NCBI RefSeq assembly: GCF_018687675.1
Contig: NZ_CP061302.1
Span: 1,066,192 to 1,130,191 of the forward strand
Length of the DNA: 64,000 nucleotides
Source of the DNA: Polynucleobacter sp. MG-Unter2-18
GTDB lineage: Bacteria; Pseudomonadota; Gammaproteobacteria; Burkholderiales; Burkholderiaceae
Direction of reading: 5' to 3'
In this document: positions 44,619 through 50,766 of the stretch, piece after piece
How positions within the stretch are numbered: position 1 is the stretch's first letter
Layout of the letters: each line of letters begins with the position of its first letter
Program-made: the position numbers and the translations under genes
The notes under the pieces: model-generated
Told to the model about the DNA's origin: nothing
The model's database searches: none
The model's input: only the letters and a program-made list of their open reading frames with translations

Positions 44619-44891
44619 ATGGCACGCATGGTTCAATGCATCAAACTCAACAAAGAAGCTGAAGGCATGGACTTCGCTCCACTACCAGGCGATCTCGGTA
44701 AGAAAGTTTGGAATCAAGTCTCCAAAGAGGCCTGGGCCGCTTGGTTGAAGCACCAAACTATGCTCATTAATGAGAATCGCCTTAATATGGCCGACCCTCG
44801 TGCTCGTCAGTACCTCCTAAAGCAAGTTGAAAAATACTTTTTTGAAGGCGGCGCAGACATGGCCCAAGGTTACGTACCACCAGCGGAGTAA
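44619..44891 (+). CDS. yggX: Fe(II)-trafficking protein YggX
   Basis: A 90-residue cytosolic protein protecting iron-sulfur clusters from oxidative damage. It shows the full family pattern: [19 protein letters not shown] with the single conserved Cys, [29 protein letters not shown] and [10 protein letters not shown]. Length matches (E. coli 91). The start has GAAAGG upstream. Not linked to mutY, its usual partner in enterobacteria. A structured RNA gene follows. Confidence 0.96.
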
Positions 44892-44908: not shown

Positions 44909-44937
44909 TTGACGAGTTAAATTCAAAGGCATAGGAT
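44909..44937 (+). promoter_or_regulatory. Promoter of the structured RNA
   Basis: TTGACG (44909-44914) and TAGGAT (44932-44937) with a 17-base spacer, 5/6 and 4/6 matches. The predicted start, about 44944, coincides with the first base of the first RNA hairpin. There is no ORF after it on this strand before the terminator at 45073-45110. Confidence 0.6.
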
Positions 44938-44943
44938 GGAATC

Positions 44944-45110
44944 GTAGTCAGTCAGTTTTTGTGATCGACTACATTGGCGAAAGCCACTACTCGTAAGCAT
45001 ATCTATATGCTTATGGGCATCGGGAACTTAAATTCTTCCCCGTGCCCGCGTCATGAATCATCATGACAAACAAACCCGATGGATCAGCTTGCTGCCCCGT
45101 CGGGTTTTTT
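44944..45110 (+). ncRNA. Candidate structured small RNA, about 167 nt, unidentified
   Basis: An RNA-gene-like unit between yggX and rpiA. After a good promoter, the transcript would fold into a series: GTAGTC/GACTAC (44944-44949/44967-44972); TGGC-GAAA-GCCA with a GNRA tetraloop (44975-44986); TAAGCATA/TATGCTTA with a four-base loop (44994-45013); GGGCA-CGGG/CCCG-TGCCC with one bulge (45015-45047); GTCATGA/TCATGAC with a four-base loop (45050-45067); then a terminator. It has no open reading frame and the next gene (rpiA) is on the opposite strand, so it is not a leader. I do not recognise it as 6S, SRP, RNase P or tmRNA. Function unknown. Confidence 0.6.
45073..45110 (+). terminator. Intrinsic terminator of the structured RNA
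   Basis: AACCCGA (45073-45079) and TCGGGTT (45100-45106) form a 7-bp stem, with an inner CAG-CTTG-CTG mini-hairpin, followed by TTTT to 45110. It abuts the rpiA stop codon, and on the minus strand it may partly end rpiA too. Confidence 0.8.
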
Positions 45111-45112
45111 AA

Positions 45113-45823
45113 TTAAAAAGTAATTCTGCTCACGCCAGAGGCATTACTCACCAATAAAATATCCGCTTTCTCTTTTGCGAATAAACCAACAGTGATTACG
45201 CCAGCGATTTGATTAATTTGCGCCTCAAGAGCAATGGGATTGGCGATCTTTAAACCGGCAATATCCAAAATCCATCCGCCGTTATCTGTCACAAAGGGCT
45301 GGCTTGCTGCTTGACCTAAATCTGCACGAGTCTCTTTGCTCATTCTGAGTGTTACTGTACCGCCCAACTTATTGAGCTCTTGAGTAACAATTCCTTTTGA
45401 TAAAGGAATGATTTCTACAGGCAATGCAAAGTTACCCAACACCGGAACTTGTTTTGAGGCATCACAGATGCAGATAAATTGCTTGGCCATAGAAGCAATA
45501 ATTTTTTCACGGGTTAAAGCACCGCCACCCCCTTTAATCATGTGGCCAGTAGGATCAATTTCATCAGCACCGTCCACATAGGCAGGCAGATGATCTACCT
45601 CATTGGGGTCCAAGACCTTAAAGCCGTGCTTTAACAGACGCTCTGTCGTGGCATTAGAACTAGATACTGTTCCCAAGAAATGATCTTTATGTGGTGCTAA
45701 GGCATCGATGAAGTAGTTGGCGGTAGAGCCCGTCCCAATGCCCAAGATCTGACCTGCGGGGAGCTTTAGTACCTCATCCCGAGCCGCCTCGCCTACTAAT
45801 TGCTTTAGTTGATCTTGATTCAT
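45113..45823 (-). CDS. rpiA: Ribose-5-phosphate isomerase A
   Basis: A 236-residue enzyme interconverting ribose-5-phosphate and ribulose-5-phosphate in the pentose phosphate pathway. Signatures: [15 protein letters not shown] (phosphate loop), [28 protein letters not shown] with the catalytic Asp and Glu, and the end [16 protein letters not shown]. Length typical. It is divergent from transaldolase, which lies 111 bases away, so the two pentose-phosphate enzymes share one intergenic region. Confidence 0.97.
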
Positions 45824-50679: not shown

Positions 50680-50766
50680 GCCCAGGTGGCGAAATTGGTA
50701 GACGCACCAGCTTCAGGTGCTGGCGATCGTAAGGTTGTGGGGGTTCGAGTCCCTTCCTGGGCACCA
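50680..50766 (+). tRNA. leuV-like tRNA-Leu: tRNA-Leu (anticodon CAG)
   Basis: An 87-nt class II tRNA including encoded CCA. The acceptor stem GCCCAGG (50680-50686) pairs with CCTGGGC (50756-50762), followed by A and CCA. The anticodon arm CCAGC-TTCAGGT-GCTGG places CAG at 34-36, so it reads CUG codons. There is a long variable arm, typical of tRNA-Leu, and the T loop GGTTCGAGTC. It is the only tRNA in the window. Confidence 0.97.

Follow-up and report, generated by a model that had tools for sequence, protein, structure and literature searches.

The HRC-28-1 RNA of Polynucleobacter: a structured unit between yggX and rpiA with a conserved promoter and copies at other sites

The yggX-rpiA locus and its promoter

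The window analysed here is a 64,000-nt stretch of the Polynucleobacter sp. MG-Unter2-18 genome (positions 1066192–1130191 on the single contig of 2.0 Mb), and the coordinates below count from its first base. The HRC-28-1 RNA unit is flanked by yggX and the convergent rpiA, and its promoter, five hairpins and terminator lie in between:

44619–44891, + strand: yggX, Fe(2+)-trafficking protein, upstream neighbour (PF04362, 143.6 bits)
44909–44914, + strand: −35 box TTGACG (TTGAC in all tested yggX-locus copies, 106/106)
44932–44937, + strand: −10 box TAGGAT after a 17-nt spacer (first 87 copies: TAGGAT in 84, TAGCAT in 3)
44944–44972, + strand: hairpin 1 with a 7-nt loop G-N5-G (seen in the fold; compensatory change in 8/10 pairs; G-N5-G in 81/83 copies)
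44975–44986, + strand: hairpin 2, TGGC-GAAA-GCCA with a GNRA tetraloop (GNRA in 73/83 copies)
44993–45014, + strand: hairpin 3 with a pyrimidine-rich tetraloop and an A-U closing pair (A-U in 83/83 copies; compensatory change in 8/9 pairs)
45015–45047, + strand: hairpin 4, two stems and an internal loop (seen in the fold; compensatory change in 8/8 modelled pairs)
45050–45067, + strand: hairpin 5 (seen in the fold; compensatory change in 6/6 modelled pairs)
45072–45110, + strand: intrinsic terminator, hairpin 45072–45107 and T-run 45105–45110 (seen in the fold; T-run kept in the alignment)
45113–45823, − strand: rpiA, ribose 5-phosphate isomerase A, convergent neighbour (PF06026, 184.8 bits)

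The promoter TTGACG-17-TAGGAT, the five hairpins and the intrinsic terminator that the initial annotation placed at 44909–45110 are all present in the sequence and the fold. Some of its stem sizes had to be corrected. Stem 1, given as 6 bp, has two parts (6+4 bp) around a 1x1 internal loop; stem 3, given as 8 bp, has nine pairs; and stem 4, given as one bulged stem, is two stems separated by a 1x1 internal loop. The 3' end of the unit is 2 nt from the stop codon of rpiA. The terminator with its A-rich 5' flank may work from both sides and so could also stop transcription of rpiA. A role of the A-rich linker for the convergent rpiA alone was rejected, because both copies in a two-copy genome (G899) keep the linker away from rpiA. 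Where the RNA is absent, the space between yggX and rpiA often holds just a terminator.

By itself, the promoter match is at chance level (1 found, shuffled mean 1.8), and its weight therefore comes from conservation rather than match quality. The promoter is retained in all 106 yggX-locus copies that were tested (the first 87, 3 more and 16), a count that leaves nine further yggX-locus copies, the one in G022 among them, outside. In all 87 first-read copies the −35 box reads TTGAC plus A, G or T, the spacer is 17 nt in 72 of them and 16 nt in 15, and the distance from yggX to the promoter ranges from 13 to 74 nt. Upstream of the promoter, a simple scan reported a terminator-like hairpin after yggX in only 2 of the 87 copies, so yggX transcripts probably run through the RNA too, and it may have a 3'-UTR role at this locus as well.

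Fold, covariation and strand

The RNA (44944–45110) folds with a minimum free energy of −71.5 kcal/mol, compared with −38.66 ± 3.7 kcal/mol for shuffled sequences (z = −8.88), and none of 200 shuffles was as good. A simple terminator scan reported none in the unit, its loop limit of 3–8 being unsuited to this terminator, which is visible in the fold. The unit had been described as having no ORF. A single + strand ORF of at least 20 aa does lie inside it (30 aa, TTG start), but its length is not conserved among the 87 copies: the start context is absent in 11, and the remainder have 2 to 45 codons. A coding role was rejected on this ground, and the noncoding reading stands.

The initial annotation suggested aligning relatives and looking for covariation, and compensatory changes were found in two alignments. 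The first (A1) holds 66 RNAs chosen from the 87 yggX-locus copies, one per group at 93% identity and without L078, whose terminator is truncated. It was aligned with MAFFT and not fitted to the model. Standard pairs fill 98.2% of its cells, and compensatory changes occur in 24 of the 47 pairs; none of 500 shuffles did as well, and structures slid along the alignment reached 35–41%. In the second (A6, 83 copies fitted to the covariance model R3), 97.9% of cells are paired and 38 of the 47 pairs change on both sides, again with 0 of 500 shuffles as good and 31–43% for slid structures.

The RNA is the + strand. The 66-sequence alignment and its reverse complement have 29 pairs in common, with G-U in 54 cells and A-C in 7. 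An A-C cell on one strand is a G-U on the opposite strand, so the excess of G-U over A-C assigns the RNA to the + strand. Of the 66 sequences, 62 also have the better fold on the + strand.

The loops are conserved mainly at their borders. The loop of hairpin 1 keeps its two G residues (81/83) around a variable interior. In hairpin 2, three of the 83 copies read AGCAAT, which is GCAA within one extra pair, and seven others are without GNRA; three copies (L084, L085 and L131) have a longer hairpin 2 stem, and L042 is without hairpin 2 and part of hairpin 1. The loop of hairpin 3 is UCUN in 74 copies and UUCN in 9, and the commonest loops of hairpin 4 have C first and C last. Conservation is higher at paired than at unpaired positions (0.892 versus 0.731 in A1).

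Distribution in the genus, copies at other sites and absence

Blastn detected the region in 90 of the 151 genomes searched within the genus; yggX and rpiA flank it at 87 of the first 88 loci read, and the 88th (G096) is a copy elsewhere. Covariance models matched 103/151 (R1, including a chance match in G137), 103/151 (R2) and 129/186 genomes (R3), where the searches over 40 genomes used stricter filters that diverged members may escape. The G137 match was dropped as a yggX-rpiA junction with a terminator only. Those in G049 and G036 (26.7 and 24.8 bits under R3) were dropped as gene ends with terminators, as read at their R2 matches. This leaves 127 carriers among the 186 genomes, each with a best match of at least 66 bits. 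In twelve of the 127 carriers, the terminator also draws a weak match on the opposite strand (24.9–33.8 bits).

Outside the genus, no credible member was found in 398 genomes of a family sample (R1) or 399 of an order sample (R2). Other-genus matches occurred in 8/398 and 8/399 genomes, at 36.8 bits or less, and were rejected as chance. Ten of the 16 were read by eye (seven of the eight from R1, G347 being the exception, and three of the eight from R2), and they look like a gene end plus an ordinary terminator without a promoter; the remaining six are assumed to be alike. An exact 18-mer from hairpin 2 hit 51 stretches in the genome collection. Of these, 46 belong to Polynucleobacter or to MAGs of betaproteobacteria or Burkholderiaceae; the remaining five, scattered over other groups, are close to the number expected by chance for 18 letters in 257 billion bases. 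The suggested restriction to one lineage thus holds in the samples searched.

The RNA lies at the yggX-rpiA locus in 115 of the 127 carriers (the 87, then G066, G082, G281 and G022, and 24 later ones). In G022 a contig end cuts the locus and rpiA alone is visible; for the 24 later genomes, yggX and rpiA were found together within about 3 kb of sequence (within 1.9 kb for L255). The other 12 carriers have the RNA away from yggX-rpiA, mostly with the same promoter. The copy in G096 adjoins a ChrR-like cupin gene, and that in G011 lies between azlD and a LysR gene. The yggX match of G011 (L172) is in two pieces with one internal stop codon, the RNA of this genome being located elsewhere. A diverged "type 2" occurs in eight genomes near polyketide-cyclase-like and PIN-domain genes (8/8; at L127 the match to the former is partial). 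G899, listed with 2% contamination, carries the RNA twice, on two contigs, and the two copies agree in 120 of 166 alignment columns. Genes for a HemN-like radical SAM protein and a solute-binding protein lie beside the first, and the second is placed between an HD-domain gene and a TctC gene. The G150 copy (L140) is a diverged member that scores 54 bits under R2; it lacks a clear promoter, and its lowest-energy fold differs in that it encloses the middle hairpins. A possible extra copy in G066 (L141, G066:C291) is on a short contig and very diverged (32.7 bits under R2); it could be contamination, as G066 is listed with 3%. Because the R3 training set included L140 and L141, their R3 scores are raised, and the R2 scores are given here. 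Besides yggX-rpiA there are thus five firm sites, plus one in G150 and possibly another at L141.

A script found TTGAC-17-TANNAT in 11 of the 14 other-site copies (12 genomes, with G899 counted twice and the possible G066 copy included), L239 and L257 among them. Promoters read by eye are TTGACA-17-TAGAGT at L240 and TTGACA-17-TAATAT at L141. The folds of L088, L121 and L120 have the same hairpin order (z = −8.68, −6.87 and −5.68). No transposase gene was seen in the ORF lists near the other-site copies that were read, most ORFs being judged by eye.

In 28 of 29 genomes without the RNA at yggX-rpiA, the two genes are nevertheless convergent neighbours, at most 113 nt apart; the exception, G031, has no rpiA within 1494 bp. 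These 29, taken by handle, are 24 apparent non-carriers, the doubtful G150 and four carriers elsewhere. In a midpoint-rooted tree of ArgA, YggX and RpiA from 120 loci rather than all 186 genomes, with low support for some inner branches, 17 loci (G150 included) form a deep clade without the RNA at yggX-rpiA and 103 form the rest. Within the 103, one side branch holds the non-carriers G055, G010, G044, G049, G001 and G036 and the other-site carriers G096, G124 and G068. Three further non-carriers, G064, G087 and G137, fall within groups of yggX-locus carriers, and no match in their genomes exceeds 21 bits. The RNA is therefore dispensable, and the pattern of absence indicates that neither yggX nor rpiA needs it. 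From these sequence comparisons, it is probably an old gene of the genus that has been lost more than once.

Identity of the RNA and its proposed role

The RNA is the HRC-28-1 motif, matched on description (genus, flanking genes and stem number), so that the word "unidentified" in the initial annotation does not hold. The available part of Brewer et al. 2021 (PMC8632094) gives 33 unique examples, mostly from Polynucleobacter, with six stems, located between yggX (PRK05408) and the opposite rpiA, and proposes a possible 3'-UTR element of yggX. The RNA studied here likewise occurs mostly in Polynucleobacter, with yggX (PRK05408) upstream and the opposite rpiA downstream, and has six stems, the last being the terminator. 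Compared with the 33 examples in that part of the source, it is found here in 127 of 186 genomes, with its own promoter, at other loci, in a diverged subfamily and in a two-copy genome.

No Rfam family matched the unit at the gathering threshold and none was credible below it, in keeping with the initial annotation; five loci with diverged copies likewise gave no family at E up to 0.1. The sole gathering-level match of the window is a tRNA at 50680–50763. Polynucleobacter-1 (RF01718), which is described in the accessible part of PMC2864571, was rejected as the identity of this RNA, there being no Rfam match here. Open-licence full texts mention HRC-28-1 by name only in PMC8632094, and no follow-up was found in that literature (Polynucleobacter sRNA or Hfq, yggX-rpiA sRNA). 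No Polynucleobacter sRNA study beyond computational motif lists was among the matches listed, and the available part of PMC7522526 has no "non-coding", no "small RNA" and no word starting with ncRNA. The element is thus already known; the conserved promoter, the other sites, the type-2 subfamily and the two-copy genome are new as far as the literature searched.

The conserved promoter, the whole cassette at other sites and the two-copy genome argue for an independent RNA gene, which is very probably what this unit is. They also uphold the initial view of a free-standing unit rather than a leader. The RNA would be transcribed from its own sigma-70-type promoter to a length of about 165 nt and is predicted to fold into five hairpins plus the terminator. 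Since helices and loop borders are conserved and unpaired runs are not, recognition of the structure by a protein, or a tertiary fold, is favoured over a shared antisense seed. The RNA would most probably act in trans, with its ordered hairpins and conserved loop borders binding a protein as a scaffold or a sponge, rather than as a 3'-UTR element of yggX or mainly through a conserved antisense seed. For the joint reading, an independent sRNA gene acting in trans as a structured protein-binding RNA, we estimate a probability of roughly 0.6 from the sequence comparisons.

The main rival is an Hfq- or ProQ-assisted base-pairing sRNA that would reach mRNA targets through its species-variable loops. 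Such sRNAs are a common kind of free-standing bacterial sRNA, and the RNA resembles them in its own promoter, its intergenic position and its intrinsic terminator with a U tail. Most copies have an A-rich linker before the terminator, and an Hfq gene is present in the genome (103.7 bits, G000:C1:1130575–1130760, minus strand, starting 384 bases past the window end). However, the RNA differs from this class in having 94 of 161 alignment positions paired and no conserved unpaired seed. The longest unpaired run conserved at the 90% level is 3 nt apart from the T tail, and the interior of the hairpin 1 loop varies between its G borders. No conserved accessible seed is found in the alignment, although species-specific seeds are possible. 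We regard base pairing as the main mode of action as unlikely.

A structured 3'-UTR element and terminator of the yggX mRNA, as suggested in the part of Brewer et al. 2021 available, is clearly less probable still. The location at yggX-rpiA in 115 of 127 carriers is in its favour, as is the finding that 85 of the 87 copies are without a terminator-like hairpin between yggX and the RNA. Against it, all 106 tested copies have their own promoter, promoter-bearing copies lie at sites without yggX, and the yggX-rpiA neighbourhood persists without the RNA in 28 of 29 genomes. The promoter, the other sites, the type-2 subfamily and the two-copy genome all speak against a 3'-UTR as the main identity, and an element derived from the yggX 3'-UTR without its own promoter is not what the sequence contains.

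CsrB, RsmY and RsmZ are chains of short hairpins behind a promoter that act as protein sponges through repeated GGA loops. The RNA recalls the CsrB/RsmZ outline in its string of hairpins behind its own promoter and in the idea of protein binding, but its loops are G-N5-G, GNRA and UCUN/UUCN instead of repeated GGA. A Csr/Rsm-type sponge, 6S RNA or another known housekeeping RNA can practically be dismissed, because no CsrA gene was found in this genome (0/1, by a search whose control was positive in 3 of 14 genomes), 6S RNA (RF00013) has no match here and lies elsewhere in the genome (60.4 bits), and neither the unit nor the diverged copies have a credible Rfam family.

Beyond the independent protein-binding RNA gene favoured above, a more speculative picture is a genus-specific promoter-RNA-terminator cassette that moves between chromosomal sites and is sometimes duplicated. 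Its RNA would bind protein through an ordered loop code (G-N5-G, GNRA, A-UCUN-U, C...C) and belong to a trans-acting class without a described counterpart. We hold this picture only tentatively, and the odds are against it as a whole.

Polynucleobacter are very abundant freshwater bacteria, according to the abstract of PMC7522526. Should the RNA prove to be an independent gene, the 3'-UTR interpretation in print would need revising, and an Rfam entry with a diverged subfamily would be merited. The close relatives without the RNA (G064, G087 and G137, each on one contig) provide a ready comparison for finding its function.
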